Virus record (IMG/VR): IMGVR_UViG_3300010151_000020
Span: 1 to 48,069 of that record
From: a virus
Strand: one strand, 5' to 3'
DNA: 48,069 bases
Shown here in pieces: positions 33,565 through 40,851 of the stretch. Made by a program: the position numbers and the translations under genes. Below the pieces are notes generated by a model that was not told the origin of the DNA, searched no databases, and worked only from the letters and a program-made list of their open reading frames with translations. The stretch's first letter is position 1; every line of letters begins with the position of its first letter.

Positions 33565-36243
33565 ATGGATTATTATTACGCACTTTTAGATAGTTACAAG
33601 CTTCTTAAAAAGCGGAAGCTTAAGTTAACTATTAATGAGCAGGAAGGTGAGGGGATGGGGGACGCGGAGCTTCTTACTTTTTTATTAGCTGGAGCTAACG
33701 GGCATACCTCTGAAAACCAGAACAAAGTGACTAGTTCCATTGGATTATTTAATCCAATGGGTGAAAAGGGTAAAAATGGTGAGGTCGCAGTGCCCGATGC
33801 TAAGTCTGTAACAGGTACATTGGGACAGAACGCAGATAGGCTTGTGAAGGGTGGTGTATTAGTACCTTATGAGCAACTGAATCAGACTGGGAAAAACATT
33901 ATAGATCAACTTAGAAGTGGAGAAGGTGGTTCAGCGGAGAAATCAACTGATGATAACGAGAGGCCCGAAGACCCCGAAGACCCCGCAGTAAGACAGGTGC
34001 TAAACAAGGCAGCAGAGGCTTGGACTAACCTCACAGCTAAAGGGGCTGGGAAAGATGAAGAGGTTTTTGATCCCGCTATGTTCCCAGGGCTAAAGGTTAA
34101 GAAGGGTCGCGCTGCTAAATCTGTTGTAAATATCCTCGCTAAAGGTTCTACGATAACGGGGTTCGGGGGGGACAAACCAGAGGAGGTAGTTCAACAGATG
34201 ATGAGTACTCCTTGTGATGGAGAGTCAGAGGAGGATATAGCAAAGTGTAATGCCTCCAAGGTTGAGGCAGGGAGAGCCTTGGAGTCGTTGGGGAGAGTCT
34301 TTCAATCTTTTAAGGATCAAGGAGGAAATATTGACATAAATACTCCCGAAGGAGAACAGTTAGCTAATGAATTACGAAGACTCAATCCTCAGCTTGCTAC
34401 TACCGACTCAGGGGTAAAGTTTGGGGAGTATTATGTCTTCTACAAGCAGGAATCTTCTTCGGAGACAGATGTTTTAAGAAATACAGTAGATCAACTTAAT
34501 GCAGCCGCTGAAAAATATAATGAGGAGTGGGACGGAGCAACTGAAGGTAAGATTCCTCTAGTGGAGTCGCAGGCAAGGGTGGTGACGGGGAAAACTAATA
34601 GAGCTATGCGTGGAACGGCAGCGGAGGTAATCGTTGGTCTAAGTGTAACCATGATGAATCTAGCTAAAAACCTCGTAGGAACTAAGGGTGATAAAAAGGG
34701 TAGAGGAAAAGTGATGAGCACTGCTAAAAAGGAAGTTACGAGACTTTTAGATGCTGCTAAGAAGAAAAAGGGTGGAAAATCTACCTTAACTGAAATCCGA
34801 GACATGTTTAAGTTAGGTGTAGATGCTATGTTAGGAGATGTATTAGCTAAGAGTGATACAGATGTGGCAAATATCAACTATGTTCAAGCGTTGGGACAGT
34901 TCTTTGCTGATAAAGGTATGGATGATAAAGTTCTTAAGGAATTTTTAACTAAAGCTGGGCAGGACGTTGGACCTGGGTTAGTATTATGCGCTTTTGCTAA
35001 TCGACATTTTGATTACCAATTATTTGGGAAGGATCTCATCCCTGAGAATGTCCAACAAGAAGGTCAGACTGATTCGACAGCCCTAGGGGCTAAGGTAGAT
35101 GTAGGGGTTAACTATGATGCAAAGGATTGTGAGAAGGTAAAGGCTCATTATGATAGCTTGTTGAGTGATGAACAGCGGAATCACTATGCTTTGGGCGACT
35201 GCTCTGAAAATGATGATCAGGAAAATTTAGGGGTGGGGATGGATGATCTAACTCAAAAGATGGATAGAGACCCAGAAGATAAATCCCAGGGTCAGAAGTG
35301 TTATGTGGGAGTTGAGATTAAAACCTTAGATAATCTAAGATCTACGAAGGGTTACGGTCAATCCTCTAATAATAGGATGAGTAAGCTTTTTGATAAAGGA
35401 AACAAACCTTGCTCCAATGACCTGAATACAAGCGACGAAAAAGGTAGCTCTGTTGATTTTATTAAGCTTCATGAGCGTAGGATGCGAAATTGTGGAGTAA
35501 GTGATGAGGCAGCGTGTAAGTTCTCTCAAACTATGGATAAAGCTGTGGAAAAGATACGCACAGGGTTAAATATGAAGGAAGATAAGTGGGGTGATGGGAA
35601 GGCTATCACTCTGAAGGATAGAAAATCCTTATTATCTCAGTGGGCTACGAATAAAGGGGGCGTTTCCAAGCTAAAGGGAGATGCTAAGTTGAGGTATGAA
35701 GGTGCTTTACGACACATTCAAAATAAAAAACAGCCAAAGGGTTTGCCTGAGAAATATAGAGGTGATGCGTATCAGGCTACTGCCATAGGGAATGAGTTGT
35801 GGCAAATTGAATTAGGTGATAACATAGAGAAGAATTCAAAAAAAGGTAAGATTACGGGGGATGCTCAAGACTATCTCTTAAGCAGGCTTCATCTTGGGGC
35901 TGGTTCAACCGAGGAGACGGGCAAGGTAGGACGAATGCTGGATGATGATGTTCAAACCTTTGGGTTAAATAACGCTGAAATTATGGGTTGTATAGGTGGG
36001 GTCAAGAGCGGTGAGTATGACTTGGTGCGTAAAGGAAACACCTACAAAGTTTTGTATACTAAAGGTGCTAACAAAGGAAAATCTCGTATGGAAATCTCAG
36101 CAGAGCGAGGTAACTTTGAAATTTCAGGTGGTAAGGGTACTGGCAATAAGATAGAAGAAGGTACTCTTCAACATTCAGATGACCTGCTCTTAGAGTTCCT
36201 CAAAGGACAGCAGATGCTTCTCAATCAGTTAATGAAACCATAA
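33565..36243 (+). CDS. Unknown 892-aa Lys/Glu-rich protein
   Basis: The protein is not recognised. It has a short N-terminal segment (MDYYYALLDSYKLLKKRKLK) ending in LTINE before Gln, a possible gp21-type cut at residue 25. A disordered, charged region spans about 100-190. A mostly helical middle follows, with basic runs (KKEVTRLLDAAKKKKGGKS). The end is amphipathic (LLLEFLKGQQMLLNQLMKP). A short leader peptide with an (I/L)-x-E end recalls T4 internal head proteins that are targeted to the capsid and trimmed, but this is inference. It lies where T4 has portal gp20, which it does not resemble. Transcription likely begins at the box just before the ATG. Its last 15 nt overlap the minus-strand nuclease gene. 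Confidence 0.6.
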   Translation: MDYYYALLDSYKLLKKRKLKLTINEQEGEGMGDAELLTFLLAGANGHTSENQNKVTSSIGLFNPMGEKGKNGEVAVPDAKSVTGTLGQNADRLVKGGVLVPYEQLNQTGKNIIDQLRSGEGGSAEKSTDDNERPEDPEDPAVRQVLNKAAEAWTNLTAKGAGKDEEVFDPAMFPGLKVKKGRAAKSVVNILAKGSTITGFGGDKPEEVVQQMMSTPCDGESEEDIAKCNASKVEAGRALESLGRVFQSFKDQGGNIDINTPEGEQLANELRRLNPQLATTDSGVKFGEYYVFYKQESSSETDVLRNTVDQLNAAAEKYNEEWDGATEGKIPLVESQARVVTGKTNRAMRGTAAEVIVGLSVTMMNLAKNLVGTKGDKKGRGKVMSTAKKEVTRLLDAAKKKKGGKSTLTEIRDMFKLGVDAMLGDVLAKSDTDVANINYVQALGQFFADKGMDDKVLKEFLTKAGQDVGPGLVLCAFANRHFDYQLFGKDLIPENVQQEGQTDSTALGAKVDVGVNYDAKDCEKVKAHYDSLLSDEQRNHYALGDCSENDDQENLGVGMDDLTQKMDRDPEDKSQGQKCYVGVEIKTLDNLRSTKGYGQSSNNRMSKLFDKGNKPCSNDLNTSDEKGSSVDFIKLHERRMRNCGVSDEAACKFSQTMDKAVEKIRTGLNMKEDKWGDGKAITLKDRKSLLSQWATNKGGVSKLKGDAKLRYEGALRHIQNKKQPKGLPEKYRGDAYQATAIGNELWQIELGDNIEKNSKKGKITGDAQDYLLSRLHLGAGSTEETGKVGRMLDDDVQTFGLNNAEIMGCIGGVKSGEYDLVRKGNTYKVLYTKGANKGKSRMEISAERGNFEISGGKGTGNKIEEGTLQHSDDLLLEFLKGQQMLLNQLMKP

Positions 36244-36762
36244 ACTATCGTGATCTTCTAAGAGTTCATCAAATTTATATATCCTGTATGAACTTTTAGA
36301 CATAGGAGGTTCTTCTTTATATATTTCTATGTATGTCTGGAACTTATTTGTTTGTACATAGTTAGGTACTATTGCTAAAGTAGGTTGTCTATCCTGTTTA
36401 AATATTATCATTGGAATCTTATCACACTTGCTTGAATCTTTTTCACATTGGTTTATAAATCCCCAGAAGTCTGAGCTATAATTATATAAACTATATAAGT
36501 TTTGATTATTGTATCCTTTTTTACATTCGATACAGTATTTAAAATTTGTTGGTGTGATTAAATCCCCATAAATTTTTAGGTGCTCTGGGAGAGTGTGGGT
36601 GGTGGCGAATGCTCCTGATCCAGGACTTCTTGAAAATTCTGTGGTATTGAATCTATCATTAAGTGTGCTGGCGATCTTGCGTTCAAAAGTGCTGCCCTTA
36701 GCCCTGCTGTTCTTGCGTTTGGGCTTTCCTTTAAGCGGAGATAAATCGTAATTATCTTTCAT
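36229..36762 (-). CDS. PD-(D/E)xK nuclease, resolvase-like
   Basis: The 177-aa product has the nuclease signature GSTFERKIASTLNDRF, then FSRSPGSGAF, then GDLITP followed by YCIECKKGY. The Asp of GDL and the Glu and Lys of ECK form the PD-(D/E)xK metal site, and the ER helix supplies the leading Glu. This order is found in RecU/Hjc-type Holliday junction resolvases and related phage endonucleases. T4 uses gp49, an unrelated fold, so this would be a functional substitute. It is the first of three lone minus-strand genes. GAGG lies 9 nt before its ATG, and its 3' end overlaps the end of the 892-aa gene by 15 nt. Confidence 0.75.
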   Translation of the reverse strand: MKDNYDLSPLKGKPKRKNSRAKGSTFERKIASTLNDRFNTTEFSRSPGSGAFATTHTLPEHLKIYGDLITPTNFKYCIECKKGYNNQNLYSLYNYSSDFWGFINQCEKDSSKCDKIPMIIFKQDRQPTLAIVPNYVQTNKFQTYIEIYKEEPPMSKSSYRIYKFDELLEDHDSLWFH

Positions 36763-37146: not shown

Positions 37147-37457
37147 TGTATAATCCTGTCTTTCTCCAAAGTGAGAATGAGCTAAATAAGATTCTTAAAG
37201 CTCAGAAGCGCACGGGACAGCACGTTTCTATCCTTTTCGTCTCTTTGTGGGATCAGTGGTGTAATGACTTGGTTGACACAATCAAGGCGACCGCACTAGA
37301 CGAAGACAAGAAGCTTTATATAGTTAACAGCTTTACGATGCCTCATGCGTTTGTTATCTTTAACACTACTAAGCTACCGCATCTGCTTAAGCTTGGGAGA
37401 GACAAGGTGAGATCGGAAGATTATTTACCTTTGGTTTATAAAGGCTTAGGTTTATAG
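37146..37457 (+). CDS. Thioredoxin-fold-like protein with a single active-site-type Cys
   Basis: The 103-aa product follows the thioredoxin layout: an N-terminal helix, the strand HVSILFVSLW, W-x-x-W-C-N-D at residues 35-41, the strand KLYIVNSF, and a TMP at residues 64-66 in the place of the cis-proline loop, followed by AFVIFN. Only one cysteine (C39) exists, so a dithiol C-x-x-C reaction is not possible; a monothiol, structural or binding role is more likely. It sits just upstream of PolA-type polymerase genes. The final 22 nt overlap the minus-strand sigma gene. Fold call moderate; function unknown. Confidence 0.55.
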   Translation: MYNPVFLQSENELNKILKAQKRTGQHVSILFVSLWDQWCNDLVDTIKATALDEDKKLYIVNSFTMPHAFVIFNTTKLPHLLKLGRDKVRSEDYLPLVYKGLGL

Positions 37458-37789
37458 TTTCCTTTCAATTCGGAGTACTCTTCTATTTTTTTTTCGTACT
37501 TCTTATTTTTAGTATAGAGAAGCTTTAAGTTGTTTACAATTACTGTTGTGAAATAATTAAATGCGCTTCCTCTATTAGGGTTGAAGTTTTTTAGAGTTTT
37601 GAGAATAAGTAAAAAACATTCCTGCTTCGCATCATCTTTTTCGATATTGAATTTGAAGCTCTCAATAATGTTTGTTATTAATAAATCAAAAAGCTCCATC
37701 AATTCCTCTTCATATTTTTCATTTTCTTGAAGGTATAAGGGAATCAATTCTTCAAACCTTTTGTTATTTATATAATAATTTTTACTCAT
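37436..37789 (-). CDS. gp55: Late sigma factor, gp55-like
   Basis: The 117-aa product holds a sigma-70 region-2-like core at about residues 50-92: EKDDAKQECFLLILKTL, then NFNPNRGSAFNYFTTVIVNN. The 'D-D-x-x-Q-E', 'F-x-P-x-R-G-x-x-F-x-Y-F' and N positions match region 2 of sigma factors, and the lack of regions 3 and 4 matches T4 gp55, which directs RNA polymerase to TATAAATA late promoters without a -35 element. It is shorter than T4 gp55 (185 aa). A TATAAT box on its strand (37800-37795) ends 5 nt before ATG 37789, so it may be leaderless. It is the second lone minus-strand gene. Confidence 0.78.
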   Translation of the reverse strand: MSKNYYINNKRFEELIPLYLQENEKYEEELMELFDLLITNIIESFKFNIEKDDAKQECFLLILKTLKNFNPNRGSAFNYFTTVIVNNLKLLYTKNKKYEKKIEEYSELKGNYKPKPL

Positions 37790-37805: not shown

Positions 37806-38828
37806 ATGAGAGAGTTAGATAATTTATATTCAGGGCTTAACCCCTTATGTTCTAATGAGTTATGTGAGGGGTGTTCTATTCTTGCACAAAGTAAGCCCGA
37901 ATACTCCTACATGGATTACGAGTCTCTTCGGCAAGGAGATGTTCTCTTTGTCGCTGACTCCTTTAGGCATAGGTATGGGAAAATGTCTCCCTTCTCTAAG
38001 AAAGAGCGTGAGCTTCTTGAGGAGTTCTACCCAGGCAAGTCCCAATACACAGCGTCCGTTAAGTGTCCTTCAGTGAAAGAGGGAGATATGATTCCTGCTA
38101 ATATGAATCTATGTAGAAAGCACTTGACTGCGACTATTGAGAAGGTGAAGCCGCGCCTTGTTTATGCTTGTGGTAATTTGTCTATGAAAATGTTAGTAAA
38201 GAAGAGCGGTATCATGGACAAGAGAGGAAATTCTTATGAATATGTTACTGATTCTGGGCACACTTGTATTGTTGTCCCTATTTATCACCCTTATGCTGTC
38301 CTTAAAGAGCCTCGTCACAGGTACTTGTTCGAAACGGACATCCGAAATGCGTATGAAAAGTATGTCCTTGGGAAAACAAACCAAGGAAACTTCGAGTACA
38401 AAGTCCTCACAGAGATCAAAGATGTGGAAGTATTGGGGGAGATGTTAAAGGATTCGGAGGAGACAGTCGCAGTAGATATTGAAACGACTGGGCTTAATTT
38501 CTTAACTGATAAGATTCAAACGATTGCTATCTCCTCCCAAGAAACTAATTGGGCTATCCCCTTAGATCATAAGGACAGCCCGTTTAGAAAGGGGATGCCA
38601 CACTATGGTAAGGTATGGAGTATCCTTCGTAAGATCCTAGAGAACCCCAGGAATAAAAAGGTCTTTCATAACGCCAAGTTTGATATGAAGTTTCTTTTAG
38701 AGCATGGTATTGCTGTTAAGAATGTATGGGACACTAAAATAATGCACCATTTTCTTAATGAGACTGCTCCCAAAGGTTTGATGGATTTGGTTAAGCTTTA
38801 CTTTTCTGATGAGTTGGAGAATCTTTAA
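37806..38828 (+). CDS. polA: DNA polymerase I piece 1: UDG-like domain plus partial 3'-5' exonuclease
   Basis: The 340-aa product has a family-4 uracil-glycosylase-like domain (residues about 10-190). Four cysteines (C20, C23, C87, C103) are spaced as in its iron-sulphur cluster (C-x2-C-x63-C-x15-C), followed by VYACGNLSMKML and YHPYAVL. The usual GEAPG-type catalytic loop is replaced by VADSFRH, so glycosylase activity is doubtful. A DnaQ-like proofreading domain follows, with ExoI VAVDIETTGL (D224, E226) and ExoII FHNAKFDMKF (D293). It stops at L340, before ExoIII, which is in the gene at 39294. UDG fused to PolA is known in phages such as SPO1. The last 38 nt overlap the antisense lipoprotein gene. 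Confidence 0.82.
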   Translation: MRELDNLYSGLNPLCSNELCEGCSILAQSKPEYSYMDYESLRQGDVLFVADSFRHRYGKMSPFSKKERELLEEFYPGKSQYTASVKCPSVKEGDMIPANMNLCRKHLTATIEKVKPRLVYACGNLSMKMLVKKSGIMDKRGNSYEYVTDSGHTCIVVPIYHPYAVLKEPRHRYLFETDIRNAYEKYVLGKTNQGNFEYKVLTEIKDVEVLGEMLKDSEETVAVDIETTGLNFLTDKIQTIAISSQETNWAIPLDHKDSPFRKGMPHYGKVWSILRKILENPRNKKVFHNAKFDMKFLLEHGIAVKNVWDTKIMHHFLNETAPKGLMDLVKLYFSDELENL

Positions 38829-39270
38829 GTATTTCTTCTAAAGCAGAGAGCCTAACATCTTGCTCCCCGTCCCGTGCATCAATCTCTTCTTGGGATACCG
38901 TGTTATGGATGGCTCCAAACTTCTTAAACCAAGTCCTACCCTTCTTAGTGAAGAGGGGGAGGAATACAAAGAGGACTAAGTACCAGTACCCTAGGGTCTT
39001 AATCAAACCCCCTGTCTCATGTAGGGTAGATGCGGTAGTTCCTTGAACAGGTCCTGCCCCAGCTACCTGCCCTACAATTGCTGCGGGGCTCGTTGTGGGA
39101 AAGATCATCTCTGATACCATCACGCCCCCTGCTGCCCCTGCTGCTACAGCCGCAGGTTCTGGAACAAAAGCCGCAACCGCTCCCCCTCCTAAAGCCCCTC
39201 CTACTGCGTGTTTAATAGTAGAGCAGCTTGCTAGGCACACTAAGACCAATATAAAAGCTAAATTTCTCAT
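38791..39270 (-). CDS. Lipoprotein with one membrane helix, inserted in the polymerase
   Basis: ATG 39270 (AGGAG 6 nt upstream) is preferred to ATG 39285. The 159-aa product opens with a lipoprotein signal MRNLAFILVLVCLASC: charged start, hydrophobic core and lipobox LASC, with acylation at C16. An Ala/Gly/Pro-rich stretch (17-85) precedes a membrane helix (about 92-108, LGYWYLVLFVFLPLF), then KKGR and a hydrophilic tail. A lipid anchor plus a membrane helix recalls unimolecular spanins or envelope-modifying phage proteins, but no family match is claimed. The last ten or so codons are antisense to polymerase codons, so the C-terminal residues (SPTHQKSKA) were probably gained on insertion. It is the third lone minus-strand gene. 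Confidence 0.7.
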   Translation of the reverse strand: MRNLAFILVLVCLASCSTIKHAVGGALGGGAVAAFVPEPAAVAAGAAGGVMVSEMIFPTTSPAAIVGQVAGAGPVQGTTASTLHETGGLIKTLGYWYLVLFVFLPLFTKKGRTWFKKFGAIHNTVSQEEIDARDGEQDVRLSALEEILKDSPTHQKSKA

Positions 39271-39279
39271 GTTTTCTCC

Positions 39280-39293
39280 TATCATATATAGCC
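39280..39293. promoter_or_regulatory. AT box between lipoprotein and second polymerase piece
   Basis: TATCATATATAG (39280-39291) precedes ATG 39294 by 2 nt with no Shine-Dalgarno; TATCAT ends 8 nt before the ATG. On the minus strand the same bases read CTATATATGATA, followed by AGGAG and ATG 39270. This is the third divergent gap of this kind within 2.6 kb. Confidence 0.45.
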
Positions 39294-39773
39294 ATGCTGA
39301 CTGTAAACAACCCTAAAACTTTTGATTGGGCAAACATGAGTTTGTCTGATTGCCTAGAAGGTAATGCTGCTGATTCTTATTTCACTCTTAAGATTTTTGA
39401 TCTGATTTTTGATAAGTTAAAGGAGATGAGGATGGGTCCAATCCTAACGGAATTAATTATGCCTGCCCTTCCTATGTTTGTGGAAATGGAGCATCGAGGA
39501 ATGGAAGTCTCTGAAGATCAGCTTCAGGTAGTAGGCAAGCAACTAAGACATATGAATATTCATGAAGAAGATTTGCTATACTCCTTTGACGAAGTTCAAT
39601 CAGAAGATAATCTATCCTCAAATAATGATTTGATTGAGATTTTATATACACGGGAAACCGCTTTTGAGTTATACCCTCCCGACCGAACAGCGAAAGGCAC
39701 ACCTTCTGTGTCTGCACCTACCTTAAAGTTACTACTGTCTCAAATTGAAGAGGAGTTGAAGAAGCGTGTCTAA
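39294..39773 (+). CDS. polA: DNA polymerase I piece 2: ExoIII end of exonuclease and part of thumb
   Basis: The 159-aa product continues the polymerase. Residues 17-34 (LSDCLEGNAADSYFTLKI) match the ExoIII region, with D27 as the metal-binding Asp; the usual Tyr four residues before it appears as Gly. Next come the helix IMPALPMFVEMEHRGMEVSE, which begins the thumb, and TPSVSAPTLKLLL, the PolA 'P-S-x-S-x-x-x-L' element. Removing the 474 nt between codon 340 of piece 1 and codon ACT at 39300 restores an uninterrupted polymerase frame. The first two codons (ATG CTG) belong to the inserted DNA. The stop overlaps the GTG start of piece 3. Confidence 0.8.
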   Translation: MLTVNNPKTFDWANMSLSDCLEGNAADSYFTLKIFDLIFDKLKEMRMGPILTELIMPALPMFVEMEHRGMEVSEDQLQVVGKQLRHMNIHEEDLLYSFDEVQSEDNLSSNNDLIEILYTRETAFELYPPDRTAKGTPSVSAPTLKLLLSQIEEELKKRV

Positions 39774-40851
39774 ATGGAATCATCGTGATGAGGGAAAGAA
39801 AATTAGTGAGTCCGTCCTCGCAGGAAAATCTACAGAAGAGCTAAGAAATTCGCAAAAGTTTATCAAGAGTTTGTTAGACCTGCGAAAGTCTCAAAAACTG
39901 GAGAAGACTTATATTAAAGGTACGACCAATGCGATTGAGTATAATGAACAGCCTAAGGTCTTTGTAGATTACAGGTTTGATGGGACTGCAACAGGTCGCC
40001 TCTCTTGTGCTGCTTATTCTGCTAAAAAAGCGATGGGGGTATCTTTTCATACGCTTCCCCGAGAAACGAAGAATAATATTCGCAGCCTGTTTGTTTCACC
40101 TAAAGGGTATAAGTTTATTACTATAGACTACGCAGCGATGGAGCTAAGGGTTCTAGCCCACATCGCTAAGGAGGGGAATATGCAAAAAGCTTTTAATGAA
40201 GGTGCTGATTTGCATACCTACACGGCTCGACTCCTCTTCAACAAGCAGAACATTACTAAGTCTGAGAGGCAGATCGCTAAAACTGTGTCCTTCTTAATTG
40301 TATATGGAGGAGGACCTTTCAACCTCGCAGAAACCACTGGGATCTCCATGAAACGAGCAGAACAAATCATTAAGAACTATCAGAGGGTGTACCCTGGTAT
40401 TTTTGAGTACATGGAGTTCGTGAATAATTATATTAAGACTAATAAGTATGCTTATACTATCTTTGGAAGGAGGAGGAACCTTCCTGATGTAGACTCTAAA
40501 GATTTTAAGGTGGTCAATCGTGCGCTCCGTCAAGGGCTTAACTTCACTATCCAGTCTACTGCCTCGGACATTCTTTTATGTGGGCTCTTAGGGGCTCACA
40601 GAAGGCTCAGAGAGGAAGGTATCCAAGCCTACCCAGTAGCTACTGTCCATGACAGTATCGAAGTGGTATGTAAGGAGGAAGATTTAAGTAAGTGTTTGGA
40701 GATTCTGTACGATGAGTTGGTGAATTATCCTTTTATGAAGGAGAAGTTTAACATTCATTTCGATGTGCCTATGAAGATTGATGCGGAGGTTGGAATATCT
40801 TTCGGGGAAGGTAAAGAGGTTAGCTTTAATAATGGAGTTCCTATCCTATGA
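39766..40851 (+). CDS. polA: DNA polymerase I piece 3: palm and fingers
   Basis: It starts with GTG 39766, with GAGGAG 11 nt upstream, overlapping the previous stop by 8 nt. The 361-aa product has the complete family-A active site: FDGTATGRLS (residues 71-80), motif A ITIDYAAMELR (D121, E126), motif B ERQIAKTVSFLIVYGG (R168, K172, F176, Y180) and motif C VHDS (H295, D296, S297). The usual Glu after the motif-C Asp is Ser. Phe at the position equal to E. coli 762 predicts discrimination against dideoxynucleotides. Piece 3 alone could bind a primer-template but lacks the front of the thumb, so it probably works with pieces 1 and 2. Confidence 0.92.
   Translation: MSKWNHRDEGKKISESVLAGKSTEELRNSQKFIKSLLDLRKSQKLEKTYIKGTTNAIEYNEQPKVFVDYRFDGTATGRLSCAAYSAKKAMGVSFHTLPRETKNNIRSLFVSPKGYKFITIDYAAMELRVLAHIAKEGNMQKAFNEGADLHTYTARLLFNKQNITKSERQIAKTVSFLIVYGGGPFNLAETTGISMKRAEQIIKNYQRVYPGIFEYMEFVNNYIKTNKYAYTIFGRRRNLPDVDSKDFKVVNRALRQGLNFTIQSTASDILLCGLLGAHRRLREEGIQAYPVATVHDSIEVVCKEEDLSKCLEILYDELVNYPFMKEKFNIHFDVPMKIDAEVGISFGEGKEVSFNNGVPIL

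Follow-up and report, generated by a model that had tools for sequence, protein, structure and literature searches.

A DNA polymerase I-type enzyme encoded in three reading frames, with breaks in the exonuclease domain and the thumb, in uncultured T4-like viruses

The DNA analyzed here, called the window, is the whole 48,069-nt stretch (positions 1 to 48,069) of the IMG/VR virus record IMGVR_UViG_3300010151_000020. Between positions 37,806 and 40,851 it carries three plus-strand open reading frames (ORFs), p1, p2 and p3, among which the domains of a family A DNA polymerase (PolA) are distributed, with one break inside the 3’-5’ exonuclease domain and another inside the thumb. A preliminary description of the window had reported a PolA made as three polypeptides, and the reading frames, the coordinates, the Pfam matches and an alignment to the Klenow enzyme all agree with it. 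The locus contains the following features:

37806 to 38828, plus strand: p1, 340 aa; family-4-like uracil-DNA glycosylase (UDG) domain and first part of a DEDD 3’-5’ exonuclease (ExoI D224/E226, ExoII D293)
38791 to 39270, minus strand: cargo gene; 159-aa lipoprotein-like protein with a lipobox, a glycine-rich stretch and a mid-protein hydrophobic segment
38829 to 39293, unstranded: cargo; 465 nt between the p1 stop and the p2 start, absent in the nearest relative
39285 to 39291, minus strand: CTATATA motif (TATATAG on the plus strand), 2 nt before p2
39294 to 39773, plus strand: p2, 159 aa; ExoIII helix (D27; the Klenow Y497 position is Gly23) and part of the thumb
39750 to 39755, plus strand: GAGGAG Shine-Dalgarno core for p3, inside p2
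39766 to 39773, plus strand: p2/p3 overlap, 8 nt; GTG start of p3 with the TAA stop of p2
39766 to 40851, plus strand: p3, 361 aa, GTG start; C-terminal thumb helix, palm and fingers

Within p1, Pfam detected a UDG domain (PF03167, E = 3.6e-6) and a DNA_pol_A_exo1 match spanning profile positions 3-129 of 173; the exonuclease domain is therefore cut short in this ORF, whose C-terminus corresponds to the loop between the ExoII and ExoIII helices. The p3 product is a DNA_pol_A protein (PF00476, E = 4.6e-76; the match begins at profile position 63) with motif A (D121), motif B (R168/K172/F176/Y180) and motif C (H295-D296). We could not detect a Pfam match for p2 alone. It matches PHROG 17, DNA polymerase (E = 3.6e-6), and a profile of the p2 family aligns to positions 160-292 of the Klenow chain (E about 1e-5), spanning ExoIII and the thumb. 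In E. coli numbering (PDB chain index + 323, our own conversion), p1 covers Klenow residues of about 330-459, p2 about 483-615, and p3 those from about 622 onwards. Break 1 falls in the loop that joins the ExoIII helix to the helix following ExoII. Break 2 interrupts the thumb, with PSVSAPTLKLLL on one side and KFIKSLLDLRKSQKLEKTY on the other; it is part of a stretch of ~40 residues that the unsplit homologues aligned either lack or have in another form. Both breaks are placed between secondary-structure elements, and both sites look permissive. The usual single chain carrying thumb, palm and fingers does not occur in this group, the thumb being split over p2 and p3 in 79/79 loci.

Scans of IMG/VR provided 83 distinct p2-bearing sequences (distinct meaning that they differ in the first 300 bases of p2), a set that includes near-copies and counts as two the window's record and a second contig, IMGVR_UViG_3300037634_002698, which differs from the window at 2 of 9,188 bases. 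This second contig speaks against a sequencing error, as do the relatives, all of which have both breaks. We found no p1-p2 fusion in 78 relatives and no p2-p3 fusion in 79; the start codon of p3, GTG or ATG, is homologous across the 79 and overlaps the end of p2 in every locus except L016. Both overlaps are present even in L257, the most diverged member, whose p2 is 44% identical. Among 215 loci with p3 and more than 2 kb of upstream sequence, 211 have p2, and the four that do not are distant loci from cellular genomes. Searches based on L257 for a near outgroup with a single break returned nothing but L257 itself and distant relatives. Of the distant relatives checked, four (L185, L186, L280 and L281) read as single long frames and a fifth (L279) is cut by the contig end; unsplit homologues also occupy one frame in BM15 (1038 aa), in LysYB1 (891 aa) and in a fragment from an Aerophobetes metagenome-assembled genome (690 aa). 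No INPHARED record was at least 60% identical to p1, p2 or p3. The exceptional locus L016 (4590-5001, on the same contig as L105 and L159) has a private internal deletion in p2 with a frame break in the thumb, which reflects either a further piece, making four, or a misassembly.

The preliminary description attributed break 1 to an insertion of 474 nt (38826-39299). Removing these positions does keep the frame arithmetically, but they are not a natural empty site, and the insertion was not the cause of the break. In 46/78 loci there is no cargo, and the p1 stop and the p2 start overlap by 1 base (TAATG in nearly all), whereas in the remaining 32/78 a cargo of 151-2,287 nt lies exactly between the two ORFs. 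The nearest relative lacking the insert, L028 (p1 81% identical; junction GAGAATCTTTAATGCTTACA), which pairs with the window on the tree, still has p1 and p2 in different frames. Because such cargo-free relatives, including the window's nearest, are split all the same, the insert did not make break 1. A tree of 52 members implies at least 6 changes of cargo state on well-supported branches, and 10 by parsimony. The break was already present in the ancestor of the sampled clade, and the cargo arrived later, at a stop/start junction that was there before it.

At break 2, the 8-nt overlap and the GAGGAG noted in the preliminary description are both present. Across the relatives, Shine-Dalgarno cores occurred before p3 in 70/79 loci, as compared with 48.2 expected when synonymous codons were redrawn, and before p2 in 35/45 cargo-free loci, as compared with 10.6 expected (in each case 0 of 2000 draws as high). 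The frequency of such cores in the p1 tail did not differ significantly between cargo and cargo-free loci (p = 0.20). These counts indicate that the putative restart signals are under selection across the clade.

All three ORFs are themselves under purifying selection, with a median pairwise ratio of nonsynonymous to synonymous substitution (dN/dS) of 0.155 for p1, 0.136 for p2 and 0.087 for p3 (66-94 unsaturated pairs). The four metal-binding acids of the exonuclease are found on two chains, D224, E226 and D293 on p1 and D27 on p2, as previously assigned for the three aspartates, and are invariant in 65-75 sequences. In p3, we observed no substitution at R78, D121, E126, R168, K172, F176, Y180, R255, Q263, H295 or D296, with gaps only in truncated loci. 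An AlphaFold2 model of p1 was of fair confidence (mean predicted local distance difference test score, pLDDT, 75.8). Its confidence was lowest mainly at residues 1-15 and at residues 310-340, which are expected to pack on p2; Foldseek matched this model to a family-4 UDG (4zby) and to the Klenow exonuclease. Modeled alone, p2 reached a mean pLDDT of 46, consistent with a need for partner chains. The split predates the diversification of the sampled clade of uncultured T4-like viruses, and is kept by selection.

A further polymerase was sought in the long relatives. Each of four viral records (G002, 129,906 bp; G003, 106,108; G004, 110,937; G005, 92,147), none of them established as a complete genome, had one DNA_pol_A match and none to DNA_pol_B (PF00136) or DNA_pol3_alpha (PF07733), leaving no second polymerase of the A, B or C family in these records. 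A Prochlorococcus single-cell assembly (G001) likewise contains one DNA_pol_A match, on a phage contig; its DNA_pol3_alpha match is on another contig and is presumably the cell's own. That phage contig (L184; QCKN01000003.1, Prochlorococcus sp. AG-409-P03; 130,604 bp) bears the three-part polymerase, which suggests Prochlorococcus as a host.

We consider it probable (roughly 0.82) that three separately translated chains assemble into one replicative family A polymerase of the UDG-PolA type, in which p1 and p2 jointly form the proofreading site. According to this model, a single PolA gene would have been divided into three reading frames before the sampled clade diversified. Translation of p3 would restart at the overlapping stop and start codons, as would that of p2 where no cargo intervenes, and the three products would fold together into one Klenow-like enzyme, in which p1 supplies D224/E226/D293 and p2 supplies D27 to the 3’-5’ exonuclease site, and p2 and p3 complete the thumb. 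The p1/p2 junction, a stop/start boundary within an essential cluster, would then have come to tolerate the arrival of accessory genes, most of which are antisense, with a TATATAG motif next to p2.

Several observations weigh against this model. The main caution on function comes from ExoIII, where the position of Klenow Tyr497 is occupied by Gly in 75/75 p2 sequences (codon 39360-39362 in the window). This Tyr, four residues before the ExoIII Asp, is kept in 5/5 unsplit relatives aligned, so that the clade lacks the DEDDy signature; proofreading may consequently be weak, reduced or altered, or may use another residue. The low pLDDT of p2 may partly stem from a shallow alignment (17 sequences). 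The loci examined for Shine-Dalgarno cores are related, and the redraw test overstates its significance: owing to common ancestry, the counts are less independent than they look. Moreover, where p2 lies next to antisense cargo, it has no obvious Shine-Dalgarno sequence.

The most serious alternative, which we nevertheless regard as unlikely, is that proofreading has been lost: p2 and p3 would constitute the polymerase, p1 would serve separately in UDG-type uracil surveillance or as a structural clamp, and its exonuclease half would be a relic. The Tyr to Gly change in all members fits this scenario, as does the faster evolution of p1 and p2 than of p3. However, four invariant metal-binding acids are not expected of a relic, and both p1 and p2 are kept throughout the clade. 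Slightly more doubtful still is an extension of the assembly model in which the breaks are functional, and not merely tolerated. Here p1, combining uracil recognition with half of the exonuclease site, would dock reversibly and switch a p2+p3 core between proofreading and non-proofreading states, and late antisense transcription of the cargo would lower one of the parts late in infection.

It is very unlikely that ribosomes shift frame at the overlaps, or bypass them, to give a fraction of fused product that is the working enzyme. The overlaps are short in the commonest arrangement (1 and 8 nt), but the start codon and Shine-Dalgarno core of p3 are conserved while the geometry of the overlap varies (-4, -5, -8, -23 and -26 nt), and p1 is parted from p2 in 32 loci by up to 2,287 nt of often antisense cargo. 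Removal of the 474-nt segment as an intron, intein or other splicing element would restore one chain in the correct frame, and group I introns are known in phage DNA polymerase genes (cited in PMC10580990). We consider this next to impossible, given that neither the window region nor any of ten cargo loci matched Rfam, that no homing endonuclease was present among ten cargo proteins scanned, that the cargo differs among relatives, and that the 46 loci without an insert are nonetheless split in different frames. That the breaks reflect errors of sequencing or assembly, or the decay of a pseudogene, is effectively refuted by the relatives: the contigs are metagenomic, the assembly of L025 is noisy, with frameshifts along its whole length, and p2 of L016 carries its private deletion, yet the second contig agrees, all relatives have the same breaks, dN/dS is low and the restart signals are selected. 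A split intein was considered separately and rejected, as we found by inspection no intein blocks and no extra domain; p1 ends in ELENL or similar, p2 starts with MLT, and p3 with MSKW or MGKW.

The genes landed at break 1 are diverse. For the antisense lipoprotein-like gene of the window, the likelier start is M6 of the listed ORF, with GGAG upstream. Homologues of it are carried by 14 listed sequences (the window counted twice), and such a protein is also encoded at L271 4232-4714. The homologue in G002 sits at roughly 49 kb, some 76 kb away from polA and within a run of small basic proteins, showing that the gene occurs at different places. Its product could be a unimolecular spanin or another late membrane protein. 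Other cargo includes small basic antisense proteins, several of which share an SYxRIYxLLxE-like motif, and, in some loci, small plus-strand proteins. L020 encodes a glycosyltransferase-like protein that matches PF13704, and L065 and L085 carry homologues of it. Small basic protein families with M(N/D)xYxxIYxLL(T/L/V)E-like motifs, at the start or within, are encoded at L271 2574-4232 and in the cargo of L016, L049, L061, L065, L075, L225 and L227; the motifs recall the capsid-targeting sequences of T4 internal proteins.

In 29/32 cargo loci, as compared with 0/46 cargo-free loci, the sequence TATRTAG occurs no more than 13 nt before p2; the three cargo loci that lack it have plus-strand cargo. 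It may be a promoter of the antisense cargo gene. In the window, CTATATA / CTATAATA motifs at 39285-39291, 33551, 36779 and 37794 lie within about 15 nt of start codons, and could be late promoters whose leaders are very short. A divergently oriented gene upstream of p1 encodes a 117-aa protein (37436-37789, minus strand) with a weak match to sigma-70 region 2, just under the Pfam cut-off, which is conserved at this place in relatives. A PDDEXK / RusA-like Holliday-junction resolvase gene (36229-36762, minus strand) is located between the structural and replication genes, and occurs in the same order in G002 (L272 4803-5330).

The preliminary description regarded a split inside the exonuclease domain as new. 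The three-part form with a split exonuclease was indeed found nowhere we searched, and in open PubMed Central papers we found neither a three-part PolA nor a polymerase broken within this domain, but two-part polymerases of families A and B are known. The marine OM43 phages MEP401 and MEP402 (Zobellviridae) resemble the window in that their PolA is encoded in separate ORFs, which flank a small one of 77 aa (PMC10580990). In contrast to the window, they have two parts only, with no UDG domain found, and the exonuclease is whole in the first part; the split is in the palm (gp13 matches PF00476 positions 48-132, and gp15 positions 154-380). In Aeromonas phage 25, gp43A and gp43B form a two-part PolB whose products co-purify and are active (PMC2988022), which is a precedent for assembly from separate chains. 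Phages 25 and 44RR thus also have the split replicative polymerase of a T4-type phage with something at the break, but theirs is a family B enzyme in two parts, with a homing endonuclease or untranslated sequence at the break, where the window's clade carries lipoprotein-like or small basic-protein genes.

UDG-PolA proteins of SPO1-like Herelleviridae and related phages (BM15, LysYB1, SP8) have the same order of UDG, 3’-5’ exonuclease and thumb/palm/fingers. Unlike the clade, they are single polypeptides in the records examined and keep the ExoIII Tyr; they are only about 24-32% identical over p1 and lack the clade's sequence around break 2. The Rhodothermus phage RM378 (Far-T4), raised in the preliminary description, has capsid, sheath, tube and prohead protease proteins related to those of the window, and exonuclease and polymerase do reside on separate genes. 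However, its enzyme belongs to family B, PF03104 (near 22 kb) and PF00136 (near 80 kb) are unlinked, and each function is on one chain; being another kind of split, RM378 was ruled out as a precedent.

Split replicative polymerases are therefore known, and what is new is the three-part PolA with a split exonuclease domain. If the assembly model is true, these viruses would share, throughout the clade, a naturally occurring family A polymerase of three chains, whose exonuclease site spans a subunit boundary, providing a case for how an essential single-chain enzyme turns into an obligate assembly, as well as natural split points for the engineering of Klenow-like enzymes. It would also mean that unrelated genes have settled at a split within an essential gene. 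Annotation that proceeds one gene at a time will probably call the three ORFs fragments, or miss p2, which has no Pfam match of its own.

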